A stretch of 64,000 nucleotides of DNA. Source: an uncultured Isosphaeraceae bacterium (GTDB taxonomy: Bacteria; Planctomycetota; Planctomycetia; Isosphaerales; Isosphaeraceae). Of this stretch, positions 47,542-64,000 are shown in pieces. The translations under genes were made by a program, and so were the position numbers. The notes under the pieces are model-generated. The model searched no databases, was not told the DNA's origin, and saw only the letters and a program-made list of their open reading frames with translations. Position 1 is the first letter of the stretch; every line of letters begins with the position of its first letter. The stretch spans positions 1,178,001 through 1,242,000 of the forward strand of contig CAMFLR010000001.1 in the NCBI GenBank assembly GCA_945957605.1, read 5' to 3'.

Positions 47542-50190
47542 TCAGCGATCCGCCATCGAGGGAGTCGCCCGCGATCGATCCTTGAGAATATCGTCAACTC
47601 TGCTCGCCGAAAGCAGCGTGTCGCGATGCTCTGGTCCAAGAACCCGGCGCTGCGTTTCGAGGCAGGGACGAAGCAGCGTCTCGGCCTCATCAAGCTTCCC
47701 TTGCGCACGCAAAATCGATGCGAGGGTGCTAATCGCATACAGAGTTGATGGATGCTCTGCGCCGAAGGTTTGACGACGCCCGTCGACGCTTTCGCGAATC
47801 AGTGGCTCGGCCTCGTTGATCCTTCCTTGCCTGTTGAGGACATGGCCAAGGTTGTAGAGCGCGGTGACCGTGTCGGGATGAGCCTTGCCCAGAATCTTGC
47901 GATCGGTCGCGAGGCATTCGCGAAAAATCTTCTCCGCCTCGACGTATTTTCGCTGTTTTTCGAGCGCGGCCCCAAGGTTGTTGAGCGTTGAAAGCAGGTC
48001 GGGATGCTCCGGCCCCTTATCAGCCCGCTGTTCATCAGCCAGCCGTCGATAAAGGGTCTCGGCTTCCTCGTTACGCCCCTGTTGCAGGAAGACATCGCCG
48101 AGGTTGAAGAGTGCCGAAAAGATAATATCAGCGTCGGGTTTCTCGGCCTGGCGGGCATCGACGAGATAGCTGCCATAGAGTTCCTCGGCTTCTTTGAGCC
48201 GATCTCTGGCGCGATAAACTCCTGCGAGATACTCGGCGGCACGCAACGACGTTTTGTGCGAGGGCCCCAAAATGCGGCGAGCATCGGGTAATGCGCGAGC
48301 AAGAATTGGCTCGGCCTCATCCCAACGTCCTAGATGCGAAAGCAAATGCCCATGCTCCGCGGCCGCTTCCAGTCGACCAGCCTCATCGCGATCGCCGAGA
48401 CTTTCGAAAAGCTTCTGAGCTGCGCGATAATGTGATTCACTCTTGATGTATTCGCCCAGGCCGTGATACGCGCGGCCAATGGCGAGTTGAATCGTCGCTT
48501 CAACTTCAGGCTGGCCGGCAAACGACGATCCCACAGTCATCGCCGCGCGATCGAGCGCCTCCGACAGGGTCAGCCGATTTGCAGCCGGGTTGCTTGCGGG
48601 CTCTGCGCGATCGAGCAATCCCTCGATCAGAAATCGGTTGATCGCCGCAGCCCTCGCTGCCTGGCCTCGCGCCTCCCGCTCGGCGACGAGCAAATACTGC
48701 TTCTGCCGCACCTCTTTGCGCCAGCTCCAGGTGATGGCCGCGAAGGCGATGACAATGGTCAGTCCCAGCGCCGCGATCAATCCAGCCTGCAACGGCTTGC
48801 GGCGGCACCACCGCCAGCCCCGAACCATAGGCCCCACAGGACGCGCAACGATCGGTCGCCCATCGAGAAATCGCTCGAGATCCTCGGCAAGCTGCCAGGC
48901 GGTCTCATATCGACTCGAAGGATCCTTCGCCATCGACTTGGCGACGATTGTGGCCAGATCGAACGGCACCGCCGAGTTCAAGCGTCTCAGTGGTGTCGGT
49001 TCTTCCTCGAAAATCCTGCGGAAGATCTCCTGCCGATCGCCGCCTGAAACTGCAGGCTGCAATGCGAGCATCTCATAAAGCGTTGCGCCCAGTGAATAAA
49101 TATCGCTGCGACGATCGACCATCGCCCGCCTGCCCGACGCCTGCTCTGGACTCATGTACCTGAGCGTGCCGGGTAGGTCGCCGGTCACAGTCATACCCGC
49201 ATCGCCCTGCACGTTGGCCATCCCGAAGTCGGCCACCCATAACCCGCCGCGAAGGTCAATCAGAAGGTTAGCCGGCTTGATATCGCGATGCACAATCCCC
49301 TGGTCATGCGCGTACCCGAGCGCCTCGGCTGCCTGCAGACCCATCGTTGCCACAGCGCGGAGGTAGGCTCGAGTCCGAACTGATGGATCGCCCGAATTCT
49401 CGGAGTGATCGACGTCGGATTTCAGTGGCGCATCGGCGCGGCTTCCTTCAATGTCGCGCCGAAACGAGGTTCGTCCCGAAAGCATACCGGCCGCGAGTGC
49501 GCCGAGTCCTTCCGATGGCGGATTGCCCGCAACGACTTCGCCGTGAACAAGGTGGCGCAACTCGCCGATCAAATCAGCCAGGCTCCCGCCCTCGATGAAT
49601 TGCATCGCATAATATGGGACACCGCGCACCAGGCCGACGTCGTGCACCGGCACGATTCGCGGATGCTGCAGCCAGCCAGCCACTTGCGCTTCGAGTTGAA
49701 ACCGCTGCAGGGCGCGGGGATCCATGACTGACGATTGCGGCAGGATCTTGAGCGCGACGCGTCGCTTCAGCGCGGCCTGCTCTGCCTCGTAAACAACGCC
49801 CATCCCGCCACGGCCGACTTCGCGAACGATTCGGAAGTTGCCGAAAACCGCCCGGCCTTCTTCATCGCGGTCGCCGTCGGGTAATTCGCTAGCTTCGTCA
49901 GCAAGCTCGGCGAGACTACGCATAGCTGGAAGCAAACTACGAACGGCATCGGCCCATTCGGGATGCTCCTCGGCGATCTTCTCGACGTCGACCGCCTCAC
50001 CACCCAGAATGCGTTTCGTGGCCTCCTCGACCAGATCGACAAGCACCGGATCGAGCCCCTGCAGGCCCAATAGCGATTCCGACAGACCCGAGCGAGCTGC
50101 ACGCCAAGTCGATGAAGCCGTCGCCGGCCGCGCTTCATCGCGCGACCCCGAGGCGAGCCCAGAATCATTGGGGTCGTCAGGATGAAGCAT
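47542..50190 (-). CDS. Transmembrane Ser/Thr kinase with TPR repeats
   Basis: 882 residues. A pre-kinase module (about 50-97: VDLVEEATKRILGGEAVDV, EEHPEWADAVRSLLPAM) precedes an intact Hanks-type kinase: GRGGMG at 126-131, Lys148, HRDIKPAN near 300 and ADFGMAN near 318. A single membrane helix lies at about 460-480 (GLIAALGLTIVIAFAAITW). TPR repeats of the kinesin-light-chain type run from about 580 to 860 (TLYRRLADEQ, LSTLNNLGAALEKQRKYVEAEKI-type units cut by periodicity). No sigma gene lies directly upstream, unlike the WD40 kinase. The start has only weak ribosome-binding sequence. It converges on the WD40 lipoprotein gene with 21 bp between stops. Confidence 0.92.
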   Translation of the reverse strand: MLHPDDPNDSGLASGSRDEARPATASSTWRAARSGLSESLLGLQGLDPVLVDLVEEATKRILGGEAVDVEKIAEEHPEWADAVRSLLPAMRSLAELADEASELPDGDRDEEGRAVFGNFRIVREVGRGGMGVVYEAEQAALKRRVALKILPQSSVMDPRALQRFQLEAQVAGWLQHPRIVPVHDVGLVRGVPYYAMQFIEGGSLADLIGELRHLVHGEVVAGNPPSEGLGALAAGMLSGRTSFRRDIEGSRADAPLKSDVDHSENSGDPSVRTRAYLRAVATMGLQAAEALGYAHDQGIVHRDIKPANLLIDLRGGLWVADFGMANVQGDAGMTVTGDLPGTLRYMSPEQASGRRAMVDRRSDIYSLGATLYEMLALQPAVSGGDRQEIFRRIFEEEPTPLRRLNSAVPFDLATIVAKSMAKDPSSRYETAWQLAEDLERFLDGRPIVARPVGPMVRGWRWCRRKPLQAGLIAALGLTIVIAFAAITWSWRKEVRQKQYLLVAEREARGQAARAAAINRFLIEGLLDRAEPASNPAANRLTLSEALDRAAMTVGSSFAGQPEVEATIQLAIGRAYHGLGEYIKSESHYRAAQKLFESLGDRDEAGRLEAAAEHGHLLSHLGRWDEAEPILARALPDARRILGPSHKTSLRAAEYLAGVYRARDRLKEAEELYGSYLVDARQAEKPDADIIFSALFNLGDVFLQQGRNEEAETLYRRLADEQRADKGPEHPDLLSTLNNLGAALEKQRKYVEAEKIFRECLATDRKILGKAHPDTVTALYNLGHVLNRQGRINEAEPLIRESVDGRRQTFGAEHPSTLYAISTLASILRAQGKLDEAETLLRPCLETQRRVLGPEHRDTLLSASRVDDILKDRSRATPSMADR

Positions 50191-53026: not shown

Positions 53027-53292
53027 AACACACTCTCTCCGAAGGAACCGGGACTTTCAGGATGGGATTCGGCTTGAGACTCGCGGGCGACCGTGCGGCC
53101 GAGTTCGATGAGATGTTCCATCGTTGGGAGGAGTTCGCGGAGAGTGCCGGCGCAATCAGGGTGCTGTGCAGCGTACGCGTCGGGTTCGATCACCTCTCCT
53201 GCCTGCAATCGTCTCGTAATCTCTTCAGTCAGCTCGGCCAGCAAAGGATTCGTTTCGTCTCCTCGTCCAGACGAGTCACTTCCTTCCGTCAT
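53023..53292 (-). CDS. Stand-alone pre-kinase module, ECF-sigma linked
   Basis: 89 residues without signal peptide or membrane segment. It matches the N-terminal module that precedes the kinase domain in both full kinases of this window. The shared pattern is L..L.(E/D).(I/T).R...GE....(A/E).......(T/V).(A/R).LLP.(M/I)..L.EL, for example EEITRRLQAGEVI, AAQHPDC and RELLPTMEHLIEL here. The kinase domain itself is missing. ATGA overlaps join it to the ECF sigma gene upstream and the lipoprotein downstream, exactly where the WD40 kinase sits relative to its sigma factor. It is either a reduced kinase or an independent sigma-binding module. Confidence 0.8.
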   Translation of the reverse strand: MTEGSDSSGRGDETNPLLAELTEEITRRLQAGEVIEPDAYAAQHPDCAGTLRELLPTMEHLIELGRTVARESQAESHPESPGSFGESVL

Positions 53293-53903
53293 CCGTTGCC
53301 CTCCAACCGACCGCGCATGTGAATCAACGCACGAAGTAGCCGCGCTTTGACCGCGCCTTCGGTAATCCCCAGCACCTCGGCAATTTCCGCGGCGCCAAGC
53401 TGTTCGAGATAACGCATCACCAGCACTTCGCGATCGCGCGCCGAGAGTGATGCAAGAGCCGACATGACCTGATCGCGACGTTCCTTGCGCGAGAGCCGAT
53501 TGCTCGGGCTGGTGTCGTTTGCCATGAACCGGCGAATGAGCTCACGCGACGAGCCGTCGAGACGCTCATCGGCATGGTCTTCGCGGTTGATGCTTCGACG
53601 TTGCGAAACGATGTGCCGCCGGTGCGTGTCGATCACACGCTCGCCGGCAAGCTGACGCAGCCACATCAGGAACGGCAGCGGCCGGTCGCGCAAATAGTCG
53701 TCGAGACGCTTCGAAGCATCGGCGAGGGTTTCCTGCACGACGTCCGAAGCGTCAACCCGTGAGGCGAGGCGACGATCAAGCCGCGACGCAACCATTCGCC
53801 TCAGGTTCGCTCGATAAAGCTCCAGCAGTTCCTGGCGAGCAGCGCCGTCCCCCTGCCGTGCTCGATCGATCAACTCCTGAGCTATGTTGGCCGTCCCGGT
53901 CAT
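53289..53903 (-). CDS. ECF sigma factor of the kinase-linked group
   Basis: 204 residues, with GAGGAG 8 nt before the ATG. Region 2 has SRVDASDVVQETLADAS and LDDYLRDRPLPFLMWL. Region 4 has ALASLSARDREVLVMRYLEQ followed by AAEIAEVLGITEGAVKARLL. It is closely related to the sigma at 40260-40910, which is followed by a full kinase, whereas this one is followed only by the 89-residue kinase-type module. It heads a five-gene leftward unit that ends in the TlpA-like gene. The region to its right is a divergent promoter area. Confidence 0.93.
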   Translation of the reverse strand: MTGTANIAQELIDRARQGDGAARQELLELYRANLRRMVASRLDRRLASRVDASDVVQETLADASKRLDDYLRDRPLPFLMWLRQLAGERVIDTHRRHIVSQRRSINREDHADERLDGSSRELIRRFMANDTSPSNRLSRKERRDQVMSALASLSARDREVLVMRYLEQLGAAEIAEVLGITEGAVKARLLRALIHMRGRLEGNG

Positions 53904-54312
53904 GGTTTCGTCTCCTCAATCCATACCCCGTGATCGCGCAAAAAAAGATACGCGGAAAATCTCATGAAATTCTCGTTTCGATTGCTGAACGTTGTAACCA
54001 CGGTAAAGAACAGTCACTTACGTCAGAATGTTGAATTGTAGCGAGCGAGGCAATTCGGCTTCCGTCAGCCTGCTGAGATCCGAAACTTCACGCCGATCCG
54101 GGGTTGCTGGTCCACTTCAGTCAGCCATTTCTCAGCACGTTTGCGAATGAGTCATGCTTGAATGCACCGTGGGATTGCTTACGCCTCGGTAGTCGGGCAA
54201 AATGCTGGTCCGACGGCTTCATTCGTTAGCCGTTCCCCGCTCGAGCGAAGAGGCATTCGTTCGGCTCGCGGGAAAAGCTTATTGGCTCGAACATCCATTC
54301 GGACTCCCCCTC
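53904..54312. other. Divergent promoter region before the MolR-like cluster
   Basis: About 410 bp between the ECF sigma gene (leftward) and the WGR-DUF4132 gene (rightward). It contains AT-rich patches near 53935-54050, including an A7 run at 53940-53946. The part 54202-54312 could be an N-terminal extension of the WGR gene, but it has no ribosome site and no family match, so it is treated as leader. No operator could be defined. Confidence 0.5.
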
Positions 54313-57300
54313 ATGGCCGATCCAATCGACGCCTCCGCGAACGACTCCCGGCATCTTACGTTCTCCGAAGGAAGCTCTCACAAGTTCTGGAAGATCGAAC
54401 TCGACGGATCGTCGCACACCGTTGTGTACGGCCGAATCGGGACCAATGGGCAAACCCAAACGAAAGACTTCAACGACGAAGCCGCGGCCAGAAAATCTTT
54501 CGACAAGCTCGTCGCCGAAAAGATCAACAAGGGATACGCCGACGCAACGGCGGGTGCTGCAGCCACGGCAAAACCAGCAGCGCCGAAGTCAGCCACCCCG
54601 GAGAAGGGCGAGGCGTCGACCGCTCCCGCTAAGCCAGCGAAGGCAACGAAGTCGAAGAAGGCGGTCGTCGAGGATGCGACTTCGGAAGCGGCCGAAGCGG
54701 AAACTCCGCGAGCGGAAGTCCAAGTACCTTCGTCCAATGCGATCGTCGTAGAAATCCATCGCGAGATCCGTCTCGAACCCGAAGATTGGTTTCGCGCGAG
54801 CTTTCGGCCTCGCCCTGCCCTTGAACGGAAGCCGCCGCGCCCATTCGACAAAGACGCCTGCTTGCAGCGATTGTCAAAGCTCAAGACAACATCGTATGGC
54901 TATGAAGTTCGATGGGTTGATTTGAACCTTCCCGACAGCCTCTCGCGCGAAGAAGCGCATTTCTGGCTCATCGCGATGACTGAAAAGCGCGACCGTGACT
55001 CGCCAATGCCGGCGCTTGCAGCGAGCATGGGAAAGAAGAAGTCGATCGACGGAAACGTGTCGGTCGACGATGTTATTGATCGGATCAAGAAAGTCGGACA
55101 CCGAATGCCGGATGAGATCTCGCTCACTCTCGCGAACCTCTTTTCTCCCGAGGATCATGTCGAAGAGATCCTGAAACGCGACGCGGTCCCCAATCAGAGT
55201 TTTTGGCAACAGTCGGCAATCATCATGTCGTTGGTCGAAGGATTCACGAAGCACTGCGTCCCCTATCTTTCCCAGTCCCAGCGTGAGTCTATTTGCAAGA
55301 GGATTCGGCAGGATTGGGACCCGACGAAGCAACCCATAAGCTACAATTCCTTCCCAGCGCAATACTATCTCGCAGCCGCGCTGGGAATGCACGACGCCGT
55401 CTACGAAATTACGTCACATTGGAACAACGATCGCTACACGAAAGAAACGTGGCGGAACAACAGTGAGAATCCACAGGAGCTCGTTTTCGGTCTTGGTTCG
55501 CCGGAGTTAATAGCATCGGAATGGAGAAGGCTCAAACTCCCAGTGCGTTCGCCCGACCAAGTCCGTTCGTTCCTGGCCTGCACCGAGTATTCCGCTCTCG
55601 ACTGCATCGCCGACACGATTGTGGAAGTTACAGATAAGGCTCTCTGCGAGACACTGCTCAAGACTTTCGCCCTGGTCATCGCGCCCGAAGCCGCCGAACC
55701 GATGTTGAGGTGCAAGCTGTCGTCGAAGGCTCCGGCGATCGCCCGCGACTGGCTCGATGAGCACGTTGGGTGCGCCGTGGCCGGACTGATCGAAACCGCT
55801 GCCGGCCGTGGTCAACTTGCGGACGGGGCCATCGAGTATCTGTGGAATATCAAGCGCAAGGGAATGAGCGACGTGATCGTCTCGGCTTTGAAGACTGCGA
55901 AGCCGGAAAAGGCATCGCGCATTCAGGCCGAAGTCCTCGATCGCGAGGATAAGGTCTACGAGCCGTTCGACGCGAAATCCACTCCCGAATGGTTGTCCAA
56001 AGCGATCGAGGCGATTGGCACCACCAAGCGAACATCCTTACCGCCGTGGGCCTCGCCCTTGACGATGCCTCCCCTGCCGGTTGGGGATAAACGGTTCAAC
56101 GACGAGCAGATTACGATCCTCCTCCAGCGCCTTGCCACCGTACCGCTGGGCGAGAAAGATCCGCTGCTTACGGCGATACGCGAGAATGTGTCGAAATCGG
56201 TCCGGGATGAATTTGCCTGGAAGATGTTTCAATTCTGGCAGGAGGGTGGATTTGCTCCCAAGGAAAAATGGGCGATGGGGGCCACTGCTCACGTTGGCGA
56301 TGATGGGTGCGTTCTCAAGCTAACACCGAAGATTCGCGCGTGGCCGGGCGAGAGCCAGCACGCTCGTGCAGTGTTTGGTCTCGAATGCCTGCGGGCAATC
56401 GGCAGCAGCGTGGCTCTCATGCAACTCGCCGGAATCGCCCAGAAGCTCAAGTTCAAAGGTCTGAAGGCCAAGGCCGAGGAATTCGTCGAAGCAATCGCCA
56501 AGGATCGAGGGCTCACACGAGACGAGTTGGAAGATCGCGTCGTGCCCGACTGCGGGCTTGACGACAACGGTCGTCGCGAGTTCTCCTTCGGACCGCGATC
56601 ATTCTCGTTCGTCCTCGGTGGTGATCTCAAGGCGATGGTTCGAGACGAGGCGGGCAAACTTCGGCCCAACCTTCCGGATCCCAACGCGAAAGATGACGCC
56701 GAAGTGGCGCAAGCGTCCGTCGACGAGTGGAAACTGCTGAAGAAGCAAATCAAGGATGTCGCCACGATTCAAGCTGGTCGCCTCGAACAGGCCATGGTCA
56801 CTGGCCGGCGCTGGAATGCCGAGGATTTCGCGACACTTCTCGTACGTCATCCCCTCATGACGCACCTCGCCCAGAAGCTGATCTGGGCCGGATTCGATGA
56901 GCAGGGAAAGCGTGTGGTCACGTTCCGAGTGACTGAAGAACGCGACTTCGCTAATCCAGATGACGAGAGTGCAACGCTCGACGGTCTGGCAACCGTTGGC
57001 ATCGTCCATCCCCTGGAATTGACCGACGCCGAGCGAAGTCGCTGGGGCGAGGTGATGGGCGACTACGAGATCGTTCCGCCGTTCTCGCAGTTGGGACGCA
57101 CGGTTTATTCCCTTGAATCGAACGAAACGTCGCTCAACGAAATCCAGAGATTCAAGGGGAAGGAGTTGGTCGCCCCAACGCTCGTGTTCACTCTTGAGAA
57201 GCTGGGGTGGGTCCGAGGGCTGGCCATGGACGGCGGCTGCTTCGACGAGCATTCCAAGCAGTTTCCGGCAGCCAACGTCACCGCGGTGGTGGGATATTCG

Positions 57301-57495
57301 GGAACTGTTGCCATGGGGTACATCGACCCTAATGAGTCGCTCACCCTCGGCGCGGTGATTTTCTGCAAGGGTATGCGAAGTCCGTCGGGCTACGGCTGGG
57401 AGCAAAAGGACGTCATAAATCTTGGCAAGGTTTCTCCCATCGTCATCAGCGAGGTGCTTGCCGACCTGAATGTTCTGGCCAGCAAAGCGAAATAA
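54313..57495 (+). CDS. WGR and DUF4132 domain protein (MolR-like)
   Basis: 1060 residues from ATG 54313, just before the WGR domain; a start at 54202 would add 37 unmatched residues. Neither start has a clear Shine-Dalgarno. Residues about 15-75 are a WGR domain ([20 protein letters not shown]), the small nucleic-acid-binding fold also present in PARP-type proteins. An Ala/Lys/Pro-rich linker follows (about 78-130), then a long helical region. DUF4132 comes near residues 750-1000 ([50 protein letters not shown]). This is the layout of E. coli MolR/YehI-type proteins. It is the first gene of a five-gene cluster; molecular function unknown. Confidence 0.88.
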
Positions 57496-57506
57496 GGCGG
57501 GATACC

Positions 57507-58649
57507 ATGGCCAAGAAATCCGCAAGCTCTCAGGTCACGAGCGACGCCAAGGCATCCGATGCCGCAGGCGCGTCCTTACAACGTCCATCGGCCGAGTTCC
57601 TCTATGCCGAGGAACTCGCCTCGCTGGAAACCTCGTGTGCCTCAGAGCCTCGTCCGCCCGGCTGGCGATTGTCTCCTCGCGCGGTACTCGAATTCGTTCT
57701 GGGCTCTCCAGAAAAAGGCGTCGCGTCCAAGTTCGTCGGCCGCCGCGCTTTTCTTGAGCGCTGCATCGTCTCGCTCGCGACAAACCGCGGCCTGATGCTC
57801 ATCGGCGAACCAGGCACTGCCAAGAGTTACCTCAGCGAATTGCTCGCGTCTGCCATCAGCGGCGATTCGACGTTGACGATTCAAGGAAGCGCAGGTACGA
57901 CCGAGGACAACATCCGATATTCATGGAATTATGCCCTGCTCGTTTCCGAAGGGCCGACCGACCGTTCACTCGTCCCCGCGCCGCTCTTTTTGGGGATGAG
58001 CCAGGGCAAGATCGTTCGCTTCGAGGAAATCACCCGTTGCCCCCTCGAAATCCAGGATGTGCTGCTCTCGATCCTCAGCGATCGCGTGATGGCGATCCCC
58101 GAGTTCCAGGATGACAGCCGGATGCTTTTTGCGCGGGCGGGGTTCAACATCATCGCCACGGCAAACACGCGTGATCGCGGCGTTAACGAGATGAGCGCCG
58201 CGTTGAAACGACGGTTCAATTTTGAAACTGTGGCACCAATTTCCGAGATCTCGCAGGAGATGGATCTCGTCCAGCGTGAATCAACGCGTCATCTGGAACT
58301 ATCAAAGGTGCCGGTTACACTTTCTCCCGAGATCACGGAGCTTCTGGTCACGACGTTCCGCGAGCTTCGGCAAGGGAAAACGACAGACGGCAAGGGGATT
58401 GAGCCACTCTCCGCGGTGCTAAGCACGGCCGAGGCGGTTAGCACAGCTTCCGCAGCGGGAATTCATGCTTATTACTATGACAATGGCGTCATTCATCCTC
58501 GGCATTTGATTCAGCACATGGTCGGCACCGTGCTCAAGGACAATCCCGACGATCTCAAGAAGGTGCAGCATTATTTCGAGCACGTCGTGAAGGCTCGCCG
58601 TCAAGCTCATTGGAAGGATTTCTATGACGCACGCGGCGACCTCTGCTGA
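57507..58649 (+). CDS. AAA+ ATPase, MoxR-type (YehL-like)
   Basis: 380 residues. Walker A GEPGTAKS (100-107), Walker B IVRFEE (169-174), sensor 1 IATANTRD (near 216-223) and an ALKRRFN arginine finger (233-239) are present. The N-terminal 60 residues are unstructured and Ala/Ser-rich. It is clearly different from the two MoxR proteins in operons 1 and 2 and belongs to the subgroup that pairs with CoxE-type VWA proteins and DUF5682. It begins 11 bp after the MolR-like gene. Its 3' end overlaps the next gene by 26 nt. Confidence 0.9.
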
Positions 58650-60999
58650 AGACTTCAAGGCGAGGATCCACACGCTGCTCGATCGGCTCTACGACACAAA
58701 CGCCGACGTCGTCTATTTCCCCGTGCGGCATCACAGCCCTGCCGGCGCCGCGCTCGTCGGCGATCTGATCGAGCAACTTCGTCCCTCCGCCGTGCTTATC
58801 GAAGGTCCAAGCGACTTCAACGATCGGCTCGACGAGTTATCGCTGGAACACCAGCTCCCGATCGCGATCTACAGTTATTTTCGAGCGGAAGGAACGCACA
58901 GCGGGGCGTACTACCCGTTCTGCGAATACTCGCCCGAGTGGTCAGCTCTGCGCCATGCTCGACGCTACAGCATACCAACGCAGTTCATCGATCTTCCCTG
59001 GGCCGAAGTCGCGCACTTCAGCCGCTCGACGCAGCGCTACGCCGACGCCGAATTGACGCGCGGACGATATGTACGCACGCTCTGCAATCGCATGCACGTC
59101 GAGGATTTCGACGACCTTTGGGACGCGATCGTCGAATCGCACGAATCGTTGAGTCTCAACGATTATTTGCGACGTGCTCACTCCCTCTGCTTTCACATCA
59201 GACTCTGGGAAGAGACGATTCGAGAGGAAGACCTTCGGCGCGAAGCCTTCATGGCCGAGCAAATCCGCGAAGCTCGCGAGAACGCGACCGGCCCGGTGCT
59301 CGTTGTAACTGGCGGATTTCATAGTAGCGCTCTGGCCGCGCGAATTGAGGGATATCAATTTGCAGAAGCTCACGATGAGCGCCTTGATGTACAGGCACGC
59401 ACGCCCGAAATCGAGGAACGCGGAATCGCGCTTACGACCTACTCGTACGAGCGCCTCGACAGTCTCACCGGCTATAACGCAGGAATGCCGAACCCGGGCT
59501 TTTACGACTACGCGTGGCGGCAGCGCCTGGCTGGGGAAGGATTCTCTCACCAACCGCTTCTTGTCGAGCTCGTTCGAGAGTTCCGCAAGCGGAAACAGAC
59601 ACTCAGCACGGCCGACCTGATTGCCGTCGAAACCTCGGCCCGCGCCCTCGCCGCGCTTCGAGGCCGGGCACACGTCTGGCGGCGCGATTTGATCGATGCT
59701 GTTACGTCAGCACTCATCAAGGATGAACTCGAATACGGTTGCCGATCTCCATTTGTCGATGCCGTCCACGCCGTTTTGCGAGGAAATCGAAGAGGAAAAC
59801 TCGCTCAAGGGACGCGGATGCCACCGCTGGTGGAGGACATCCAGCGTCAGTTGGCCGAGGCACAAATTGAAATCGTTCGAAGCGGTTTGACAGTGACTTT
59901 GGATTTGCTGAAGCCAGATGACCTTCCGAAAAGCCGGCTTCTGCACCGCTTGAAAGTCCTTGGAGTTGCTGGAATCGAACGGACGGGCGGAACAAACTTT
60001 CTAGGGCGAGATGATCTCTCGCGGCTTTGGGAATCGTGGCACCTCCGCTGGAGTCCGGAATTCGAGGCGACTTGCATCGAAGCATCGCGCTACGGCACTT
60101 CGTTAGCGGATGCAACCGCATCTCGATTATCGGAAATGGCTCGCGCCTTCGATCGCGACGCGACAGCCGCTGCCTCGCTCCTGGTGCAGGCAGCCCAGGC
60201 AGGAATCGAAACCATCTCGAACGCGCTGGTCGACCGTCTGAGTGAATTGATCCGCGAGGAATCACTATTCATCGGCGCAGCGGGTGCTCTCGGTCACATT
60301 CTCTTTCTGTATTGCCACGACGAAGCCTTCGGTACGACTCGCTTACCCCGAATCGGTCAGCTTCTTTCGGAAGCGTTCGCGCGATCCTTGTGGCTGCTCG
60401 AGCTGCTGGGTCAGACGGCTGGTAATGAACCCGTGCTCCTTCGCGGTATGAAGTCTCTCCTCGAAACCTCGCAACGCGCCGCCGATTCGTCCGAGTCAGT
60501 TGGCTGCGATCAGGCTGAGTTCATCGCAGTACTGACGCGCGTCGAGCGAGACCCTCGCAAGCTTGCCTGCGTACGGGGCGCGGCGGCTGGCATTCTCTGG
60601 ACGCTTGGCGCAGCGGATGAAGAGCAAATTCTGGCGGACCTCATGATCTTCGCCGCCCCGGCAGAAATCGGTGACTTTCTTTCAGGCCTGTTCGCCCTGG
60701 CCCGCGAAACCGCTCAGCGGAACGCGAAACTCGTGCAGACGATCGACCGCTTACTGACTGAGTTCGGCGCCGACGATTTTCAAGCGTCGCTACCATCGCT
60801 CCGGCTTGCGTTCACCTATTTCACGCCGAGGGAAAAGCACCACATGCTAACAACCCTCTTCGAATCACTTGGACTCAAAGAGATCCGCCCTCTCGCCAAG
60901 TTGACCGTCAACGAAGCCACCGCCGCCGAGGCACTCGCGCTAGAAGAACGCCTCTTCGAAATGATCGCAAAATATGGATTGGAGGCGCCCCATGAGTGA
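58624..60999 (+). CDS. DUF5682 family protein (YehM-like)
   Basis: 791 residues. The start at 58624 lies inside the end of the ATPase gene, with AAGGA 5 nt upstream. Key motifs are VRHHSPAGA (34-42), LIEGPSDF (58-65), [22 protein letters not shown] and [11 protein letters not shown] (near 226-236). The HHSP and GGFH motifs with conserved His and Glu recall the TraB/EreA-type fold, but catalysis is unproven. The second half is helical. It always seems to travel with the MoxR-type ATPase and VWA protein found on either side here. Expected cytosolic. Confidence 0.87.
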
Positions 61000-62128
61000 C
61001 ACCAATCGCCAGGCTCGCTGGCGGCTTGTTATGGGCTCCGGATCCGAACAGCTCTGCGGCAGCCTCAGCGGAGAAGATCTGGTTCGCGACGAATGTCTTG
61101 GCTATCTCTACGATCGCGAATACGGCGCTGGCCGCAACGTGCGCGGAAAGGATGCGGGAGGTACTTCCGGCAGTCTTGGCGAGTCGTCGCTCACAGTTCC
61201 TGACTGGATCAACCGAATCCACGAGTTGTTTCCCAAACGCACCGTCGAGCGGCTTGAGAAGGACGCGCTCGAACGCTACCAACTTGACGAGATGGTCACA
61301 AATCCCGAAGTGCTCGCCCGAGCGCAGCCCAATCTGACGCTGCTCAAGGCTGTCCTGCGAACGAAGCATCTGATGAATCAAGACGTCCTCAAAGCCGCCC
61401 AGCACATCGTTCGCAAGGCGGTCGAGGAGTTGATGAAAAAGCTAGCTGTCGACGTCCGCAACGCCTTCCAAGGTTCGCTCGACCGCCGCAATCGCTCGCA
61501 GTTGAAGATTGCCAAGAATTTCGATATCTCCACAACCTTGCGCCGTAATTTGAAGCACTACGATCCGGCGGAGAAGCGCATTCTCATCGAGACGCCTTTC
61601 TTCTATTCGCGAATTCGTCGGCAGGTCGACCGCTGGCAATTGATCATCTTGGTCGACGAATCCGGCAGCATGATGGACAGTGTCATCCACTCGGCCGTCA
61701 CCGCTTCGATCTTCTACAGCATGAGGATGATGAAGGTGCATCTTTGCATCTTCGATACGTCGGTTGTGGATTTAACCGCCGATTGCGTCGACCCGGTTGA
61801 GACGCTGATGAAGGTACAACTCGGTGGCGGGACCGACATAGGTCAGGCGCTGGAATATGCATCACAGATCGTCGAAAATCCGCGCAGGACGATTGTGGTC
61901 CTGATCTCAGATTTCTTCGAGGGAGCCCCCATCCATCGGCTGTTCGCGGTGGCGAAGAAGCTCGTCGAAAGCGGCGTCACTGCGCTCGGCCTCGCCGCGC
62001 TCGACGAGCGAGCCGATCCCACCTATGACCACGAAGTGGCCGCTCGGCTCGTGCAGATGGGTTGGCACGTGGCCGCAATGACACCGGGCGAACTCGCGAA
62101 CTGGGTTGCCGAAAAGGTCAGAAAATGA
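60992..62128 (+). CDS. VWA domain protein, CoxE type (YehP-like)
   Basis: 378 residues from ATG 60992, with GGAGG 6 nt upstream; it overlaps the previous stop by 8 nt. The C-terminal half is a VWA/CoxE domain with a full metal site: DESGS (222-226), the Thr of GGGTD and a later Asp in ISDFFEG. The N-terminal half is helical, with a possible partner-binding region. Its length and layout match E. coli YehP. It should be the substrate or partner of the AAA+ ATPase encoded two genes upstream. The stop overlaps the next start as ATGA. Confidence 0.9.
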
Positions 62129-64000
62129 CAGCCGCGCGGCGACTCGATTTCCTGGCGTTGACGCCTGATGATCTCGCGATGCTAACCAATCGCGGCACGG
62201 TTAAGCGCGCTCAGAAAGAAATCGAAGACGGTCAGCCTACCTTCGAGTTTCACGAAGAAGAAGGCGGCGCATTTCTATTTCGCTGGTCCGACGGAATTAC
62301 ATGCCGATTCCCTGCCGGGCGGCCAGTACACGACGCCGTTTGCTCGAGCGGACTCGCGGGTATCAGCCGTCACATCATCCGTTCGATTCTCGCCTATCAA
62401 AAGGCGGAAGAGAGTCGAACCGATCAATTGGAGCCGGCAACGTCCTCGGAAGCCCCGGTCGTTGAAGCATCTTCCGCGTCCGATGCAGTTGTCAAAACCG
62501 ATTCGGACGTGACACCACTTCAGATGGAGACCCTGGTTCAATCTGCGCAGAGCTGGGATCCCGGCGCGATTACCGACGATGAACTCGTTTCTCACTTCCG
62601 CAAACCGGCGATTGTCAAGGCGAGGAAACGCTTCGAGCAAGGCATACTTGTAGAATTGACGCGCGGGAGCAAGCCTGTTGCGAGGTTCCTCGATGAGAAT
62701 TGCACGGTCCGGTTTCTGGTGGCGGGCAACCTGCACTACATCTCTGCCGACTGTGCCGAACCCCTCCTTTCGCTATGGGTGCCGATTGCTGTTTGGGCGT
62801 TTCGCGAATTGCCGTCGCATCGACTGGCGGGCATGGTCAGCCTCCAGTCGTCGCCCTTCTCGGTCCCAAAGCCTGAATTCGATAAGCTCGAGTCACTGCT
62901 TGGTGAGCTCTACCGCGACGGGTTGAATGGCGTCGCCGAGTCCTGGTCGCAGCGCCTCTCGCGCGTCGAGCAGATGCTGCGAGACGAGGGGCTCACCTGG
63001 CCGGCCGAGCTTGTCGCGGAGTTAACCCACCAATTCGAGATGTACCGCCAACACGACGCTCGCTTCGAACCTAGGCAGGTCGTGCAACTCGTGGGAGAAT
63101 TGACCGCCCGCTCGCGCGCGATTCTCAACGATACGCGATCAGTTCCCCAACTCCTGATTCGAGGGACGAAATCCGATCGACCTGCCGATATTGCTGGGGG
63201 CCGTATGATCGGCGTGGGTCTGGGAGTGCGGCCCGGCCAGAAGCATACGACGATCAGTGCCTATCTTCAGGACGTTGATTCTGGTGGCGTCGTTGCCGTC
63301 GAACGGACGTTTGCTTCTTCCCCACAAGACGAATCATCACGCTCATTCGTTTCGTTGGCGTCGACCGTTCTCACTCGCGGAATTTCGCTGGCGAGTCTGG
63401 CGTCGTCTCAAGTGCTCCTCAAGTCGGGCAAGCGAACGCCCAGCGGATTGCTCATCCTGCCTCGAACTTCTGCCAATCTCGCGACTCATCCGCAGGCCTA
63501 TCAGTGGGAACAATTGAAGCCTCCGTTCGCCGCAGAAGGCTTCGCCCAACTCGCCGAGCGATTGGACACTCTTCCGCCCTCATGCTTTCGACCCCGCCGG
63601 CGCACCGAAGGGCTTCACGTCGTCGCCGTCAGTCGGGTCGACATGATTGAATTTGATCCCACGACCCAACGCCTCGCTGCAAGAGTCGTCGATTCCGAAG
63701 GTGAAATCGCCACCCTGGTGCATCCGTTCCACCATCGGGGTCGAGAGGGCTTCAACCACCTCGCCGACGTACTTCAAAATCGCGGCGATAGCGTTCGGTT
63801 CATTTCCGGCCATATTCGCTCTCGCGGACGAGCTCTGGAGATCCAGCCCATCGCCATCGTGCTCGACAATGGCCAACGTCGGATCGGCATAAACCCTTGG
63901 TTACCGCTCAATTCAGATATCACTACGAACGACGAGCAAGGGGCCGACAACGATTCGGCGGAAGCGGAATGCGAGACCGATTCACCTATAAAAGCGTTTC
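62125..64000 (+). CDS. SWIM-like zinc-finger protein (YehQ-like), 5' part
   Basis: At least 625 residues with no in-frame stop; the gene runs off the window end. Residues 57-92 ([17 protein letters not shown], then [20 protein letters not shown]) resemble a SWIM finger, but the canonical CxC...CxH is broken. C60, H69, C73 and H83 remain as possible alternative ligands. An acidic/Ser-rich linker (about 95-150) precedes a large unassigned region. The ATGA overlap with the VWA gene, the position in the cluster and the SWIM-like start are the basis for likening it to YehQ. Confidence in the exact family is moderate. Confidence 0.7.

Follow-up and report, generated by a model that had tools for sequence, protein, structure and literature searches.

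The window analysed here, a stretch of 64,000 nucleotides from an uncultured Isosphaeraceae bacterium (contig CAMFLR010000001.1, positions 1,178,001 to 1,242,000), carries towards its right-hand end a gene cluster of the molR/yehLMPQ type, encoding a WGR-DUF4132 protein, a MoxR-type AAA+ ATPase, a DUF5682 protein, a CoxE-type von Willebrand factor A (VWA) protein and a YehQ homologue. This orphan cluster, whose families are discussed in almost no paper of the literature searched, probably belongs to the bacterial DNA-damage response, because its relatives sit behind promoters switched by DNA damage. The locus comprises the following features:

54313..57495, plus strand: gene 1, molR/yehI-type WGR-DUF4132 protein of 1060 aa (Pfam WGR 5.6e-19, DUF4132 8.5e-51)
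54343..54558, plus strand: WGR domain, residues 11-82 of gene 1 (by superposition, shares its fold with the WGR of PARP2/PARP1, which binds 5'-phosphorylated DNA ends)
57507..58649, plus strand: gene 2, MoxR-type AAA+ ATPase (YehL) with Walker A GEPGTAKS (Pfam AAA_5 5.1e-34)
58624..60999, plus strand: gene 3, DUF5682 (YehM), 791 aa (Pfam DUF5682 1.1e-119)
58681..59358, plus strand: putative ChaN/Tiki-like domain of DUF5682, residues 20-245 (predicted fold, invariant residues)
60974..62128, plus strand: gene 4, CoxE-type VWA (YehP) with the metal-ion-dependent adhesion site (MIDAS) motif DESGSM (Pfam VWA_CoxE 1.8e-52)
62125..64000, on to 64242 in the parent contig, plus strand: gene 5, YehQ homologue of 705 aa (iterative hidden Markov model (HMM))
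G000:C1:1242286-1243302, outside the window, same strand as genes 1-5: gene 6, SWIM domain with a LigE-type ATP-dependent DNA ligase
53904..54312, plus strand: upstream intergenic region, presumed promoter, which also precedes a sigma-factor-like gene running the other way (minus strand, 53289-53903)

The original prediction had claimed five consecutive coupled genes, and this was borne out by their tight coupling on one strand; in genes 1-4, the families it had named (WGR, DUF4132, MoxR AAA+, DUF5682, and CoxE) were all recognised far above the Pfam cut-off. As the reading frames of genes 2-5 overlap or abut, these genes likely form one operon. The AAA+ protein with its Walker motif is encoded beside the VWA protein, which has a MIDAS (DxSxS), as is characteristic of MoxR/VWA pairs. 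Gene 5 starts with an ATG at 62125, crosses the window edge and stops at 64242; it has no Pfam match, but was grouped by iterative HMM with YehQ proteins, including YehQ of E. coli. The cluster had been considered complete with these five genes, which holds for the gene set but not for the end point, since a sixth gene, the SWIM-ligase, lies past the window edge. The GC content of the cluster genes equals that of the window and thus does not suggest a recent import. The planctomycete host also stands, the closest relatives of the DUF5682 protein being from Planctomycetaceae and Fimbriiglobus.

A survey of neighbourhoods revealed that the five genes are strongly co-conserved, all standing on one strand in 60 of the 67 named relative loci with sufficient flank; the named loci span Actinobacteria, Proteobacteria, Acidobacteria, Cyanobacteria, Verrucomicrobia, and Planctomycetes. 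Clusters with DUF5682 occur in at least three forms, namely type B (the MolR type, to which the window cluster belongs), type A, composed of SWIM-DUF5691/HEAT-MoxR-DUF5682-CoxE, and a divergent group. Besides its one type B cluster, the genome of the window carries one of type A (L035, G000:C4:142600-162500), consisting of SWIM, a 533-aa protein, MoxR, DUF5682, and CoxE. In the divergent group, found in Actinobacteria and Planctomycetota (L243-L247, L196, L197, L199), a DUF5682 protein of about 1000-1400 aa is accompanied by MoxR and CoxE and adjoined by proteins without a Pfam match, some of them 1650-1750 aa long.

A clue to the function comes from the promoters of the actinobacterial relatives. 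In mycobacteria, the damage regulator PafBC recognises the motif TGTCGG/TGTCAG-N10-TA-N3-T (PMC8151990). In 49 actinobacterial MolR-type loci, 34 of 42 copies of this published motif fell into start regions making up 1.7% of the sequence, and did so in 29 loci; as several strains are closely related, the copies are less independent than the nominal p of 1e-52 implies. At the cluster starts of 31 non-actinobacterial named loci there was none, with two copies elsewhere. A stricter RecA-NDp/PafBC form, reportedly given by Gamulin in 2004 as TTGTCRGTG-N8-TANNNT, occurred 10 times in the 49 actinobacterial type-B loci, always at the start of molR or MoxR and always with the 8-base spacer, while 300 shuffled versions gave zero matches in the test region. 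A fresh draw of 20 actinobacterial DUF5682 loci from another sample yielded 14 with the strict motif where the cluster begins, among them 8 of 9 canonical type-A and 4 of 5 divergent-group clusters, with one strict match elsewhere. According to one paper, S. venezuelae did not seem to conserve the mycobacterial PafBC motif (PMC9380542), while another shows that RecA-NDp promoters are present in S. coelicolor (PMC5087735); our motif data agree with the latter. No paper tying PafBC to this cluster was found in the literature searched, a limited set, so that an earlier mention elsewhere is possible. LexA boxes of the Gram-positive, gamma and alpha forms scanned were not enriched upstream, although in one Dactylosporangium locus (L106) a box of the LexA type, CGAACATATGTTCG, accompanies the PafBC motif ahead of molR.

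A second, unrelated regulator appears in Deinococcus. The type-A cluster of Deinococcus taeanensis (L223) has a site resembling the radiation/desiccation response motif (RDRM), TTATGTTTCTGGCGTAA, matching 15/17 and lying 20-36 bp before the first gene, SWIM; it is the only site scoring 15/17 in 29 kb of this one genome, with a chance expectation of 0.012. In D. radiodurans, the DUF4132 protein DRA0166 and the WGR protein DR2173 rose with mitomycin C in an IrrE-dependent manner, together with RecG and LigA (PMC8533742). With PafBC in Actinobacteria and DdrO in Deinococcus, promoters read by two unrelated regulators would place the family in the DNA-damage response. On a D. radiophilus plasmid (L250:7918-8224), we also identified what is left of a SWIM gene, preceded at once by an RDRM-like palindrome (13/17); this resembles a decayed type-A cluster, and a type I-C CRISPR operon lies about 3.4 kb away.

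Promoters of this kind might merely reflect infection as the trigger, if the cluster were an anti-phage or other conflict system built on the MoxR-VWA core. MoxR-vWA pairs do form the core of predicted conflict systems, among them published ternary systems (PMC7159879), and the distribution within Planctomycetota is patchy, with DUF5682 in 31 of 294 genomes; moreover, relatives of DUF5682 were found in 35 plasmid records, and one of the plasmid copies adjoins a type I restriction system. In E. coli, however, the cluster is near-core, being present in 5301 of 5426 genomes and chromosomal in 5320 of 5322 places, and no IMG/VR contig and only one phage record contained a relative. PADLOC gave no system match, recognising the WGR domain only, the bpMoxR score of 22.6 bits stayed under the Pfam cut-off of 27, and the neighbouring genes are mostly not defence genes. 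A location in defence islands likewise found no support in the PADLOC, viral, phage and plasmid searches, and we regard a conflict system as unlikely. Of the “stress or conflict-response machine” originally proposed, the stress half is thus supported by the PafBC motif, the DdrO-type operator and the mitomycin-induced WGR and DUF4132 proteins, whereas the conflict half is not, in view of PADLOC, the near-core status and the viral collections.

Predicted structures provided further insights into the individual proteins. MolR (gene 1) is made up of WGR, an alpha-solenoid and DUF4132; its model (mean predicted local distance difference test (pLDDT) 87.7) comprises the WGR domain, the helical solenoid and a C-terminal domain that resembles YugN (Z 9.6). 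Its WGR domain superposes on the PARP2 WGR 6f5b with Z 8.9 and a root-mean-square deviation (rmsd) of 1.9 over 74 residues, and on 2ra8 with Z 12.4; PARP2 WGR is described as bridging 5'-phosphorylated DNA ends (PMC8190142). The DUF5682 model (mean pLDDT 90.2) combines a putatively ChaN/Tiki-like N-domain with a remainder of mostly helical repeats. Residues 20-245 match ChaN (2g5g) with Z 8.6 and an rmsd of 4.8 over 159 aligned residues, and the N-domain matches a Tetrahymena complex IV subunit with Z 10.5; the match to Pfam Cofac_haem_bdg (ChaN/Tiki; E 0.0011) stays below the cut-off. Across 60 sequences, R35, H36, E60, D123, and H233 do not vary, and of these H36, E60 and H233 are the candidates for the GxxH / E / GxxH-type residues of a Tiki-like fold. 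DUF5682 is a probable hydrolase. When the complete models of DUF5682 and MolR were compared with the PDB, most matches were generic helical repeats and were not interpreted, and a sequence-profile search of the PDB with DUF5682 gave helical chance matches only.

The putative likeness of the DUF5682 N-domain to haem-binding ChaN, together with a VWA of CoxE type, would also suit a machine for metalloenzyme maturation of the CoxD/CoxE or NorQ/NorD kind, in which DUF5682 would be the partner that handles haem or metal. MoxR-VWA pairs are known to insert metals (PMC9976466), and such a role would fit the old molybdate phenotype of molR, whose name stems from molybdate use according to reference 69 of PMC8533742 as cited there. 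We nevertheless regard it as unlikely: no conserved metalloenzyme gene was recognised among the neighbours, the WGR, SWIM and ligase domains point to nucleic acid, the promoters are of damage type, and in D. radiodurans the rise of the DUF4132 and WGR genes came without a change in moeA/moeB (PMC8533742).

Gene 5 had been predicted to be SWIM-like, and while its homology to YehQ was confirmed, cysteines have been lost from both SWIM CxCxnCxH motifs, which are degenerate and lack their zinc ligands. This is exceptional, as at least one such motif is kept in 87 of 89 YehQ-like open reading frames, the other exception being a second YehQ-like protein, L128:13443-15812, from the metagenome-assembled genome of another member of the Planctomycetaceae. 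The partial YehQ of L084, the closest named relative, reveals the same degenerate first motif (CSSG..GISRH), and for this reason the loss in gene 5 is not an assembly error as far as that motif is concerned.

An intact SWIM zinc finger is instead found in gene 6, which starts 43 bp downstream of gene 5 on the same strand. Here, the finger CTCPAWRNQSTLIEKRTCKH is joined in one protein to an ATP-dependent DNA ligase, which has adenylation and OB domains and the catalytic KxDG motif in the form KLDG. Its best solved relative is PDB 4d05 (E 9e-68), and it scores 343.9 bits against NCBIfam PRK09125, above the family cut-off of 200; it is a ligase of the LigE type. Among planctomycete relatives of the same class, most orphan SWIM-ligases carry a C-terminal WGR domain, whereas the two at a MolR-type cluster, in the window genome and in G279, both do without it; in G279 the gene is split over two contigs, C58 and C285, which presumably join. 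Besides the window, three planctomycete loci have ATP ligases no more than about 10 kb away from their DUF5682 clusters: G279, where a ligase of the lig042 type (a family called after the L042 protein, its first member) and the SWIM-ligase lie near the cluster, divergent from the molR pair, as well as G171 and G009, both with lig042-type ligases. At L154, over the same range, a split LigD set of polymerase, ligase and phosphoesterase is divergent from the cluster. Strong lig042-type matches occur in 6 of 294 genomes, four of which carry DUF5682, three of these with the ligase at the cluster. A WGR-like tail of lig042-type ligases is plausible by eye, but is not claimed here, as the probability given by hhalign was just 30%, over 23 columns. 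The lig042-type ligase of G145 runs on into a p97/FtsH-like AAA+ domain within an open frame of 1043 aa (L182:2404-5535).

It is possible, though doubtful, that the cluster is as described and the SWIM-ligase gene is a chance neighbour outside the system. The gene was found in 0 of 80 named loci, among the 13 carrier genomes of the relatives set it lies at the cluster only in G000, and the co-occurrence of ligase and DUF5682 among relatives fades after allowing for genome size (z 1.6), which makes it weak support. Pointing the other way are the short gap and common strand, the second, independent linkage in G279, again without the C-terminal WGR, the further ATP ligases at G171, G009 and L154, and the co-occurrence of SWIM-ligase and DUF5682 across the phylum (5/7 vs 31/294, p 2e-4). 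The sequence data indicate that the link between ligases and these clusters is real but uncommon, most clusters lacking it.

Taken together, the cluster is probably a DNA-damage-induced, ATP-driven MoxR-VWA remodelling machine, whose target would be damaged DNA or a protein stuck on it. The WGR protein would recognise DNA breaks, either 5'-phosphate ends or nicks, and hold the broken DNA via its solenoid and DUF4132 body, while the SWIM component would supply additional nucleic-acid binding. The MoxR hexamer, coupled via the CoxE-type VWA adaptor, would remodel a client, probably DUF5682 or a DNA-bound protein. With its ChaN/Tiki-like fold and invariant His/Glu/His set, DUF5682 is likely the enzymatic part, and in this planctomycete the SWIM-LigE ligase would seal the strand. 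The link to damage is established for the relatives; for the window operon we infer it, as we do the physical assembly, the sequence of the steps and an enzymatic role for DUF5682. A more specific version, the clearing of DNA-protein crosslinks or of ends, in which WGR finds the break, MoxR-VWA pulls the bound protein, DUF5682 removes it as a Tiki-fold metallo-hydrolase and the SWIM-ligase reseals, is unlikely as it stands.

Several observations weigh against a damage-induced remodelling machine. Upstream of the window cluster itself (L002), there is no PafBC or Deinococcus damage motif, planctomycete damage motifs not being established; the best SOS-like site of the E. coli cluster reaches only 14/20 and lies within a gene, and the alphaproteobacterial copies have no GTTC-N7-GTTC box at the promoters inspected. 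Promoter motifs, moreover, show regulation and not biochemistry. The regions for the motif test were fixed with the first matches already in view, against which the second draw guards, but the site positions of that draw were judged by eye with several start codons uncertain, and the motif counts include related strains. The loss of zinc ligands in the window YehQ must be added, as must the rarity of the ligase linkage, the SWIM-ligase standing at the cluster in two genomes and being an orphan in most.

If the placement in the DNA-damage response is right, the orphan yeh/molR cluster becomes a directly testable candidate for DNA repair, the dedicated planctomycete ligase hints at a possible end product, and nucleic-acid transactions would join the known roles of MoxR-VWA machines. 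Two further genes close to the cluster, both on the minus strand, were recognised by eye from their translations, namely the divergent sigma-70-family-like gene (window 53289-53903) and a TPR-bearing Ser/Thr kinase-like gene (window 47542-50190).

Among the closest known systems is the yeh/molR region of E. coli, already named in the original prediction: in yehI-yehL-yehM-yehP-yehQ, the five families follow one another just as in molR-MoxR-DUF5682-CoxE-yehQ of the window, with matching strand. It differs in the additional WGR genes yehF and yehH (the latter a pseudogene in K-12), in the intact SWIM motifs of YehQ, and in lacking both a ligase gene and a clear SOS box. Type-A clusters share the core of MoxR, DUF5682 and CoxE and a SWIM protein, though a different one, and the DUF5691/HEAT protein replaces WGR-DUF4132; their copies in Actinobacteria and Deinococcus have damage-type promoters.

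The WGR domain of gene 1 is predicted to have the same fold as that of PARP2 bound to 5'-phosphate DNA; unlike the PARPs, gene 1 has no PARP catalytic domain, is fused to the solenoid and DUF4132, and has YGR in place of WGR. Gene 6 shares the catalytic and OB domains of the minimal LigE ligases (4d05), from which it differs by its N-terminal SWIM finger. For the clearing of crosslinks, eukaryotic p97 with SPRTN/Wss1-type proteases may be proposed as an analogue, the protease role of DUF5682 being purely a proposal. NorQ/NorD, RavA/ViaA and CoxD/CoxE have a MoxR AAA+ protein beside a CoxE-type VWA, just as in the window (PMC9976466, PMC7159879), but here this pair is accompanied by nucleic-acid-type domains and a ligase rather than a metalloenzyme, and its relatives are under damage-type regulation.

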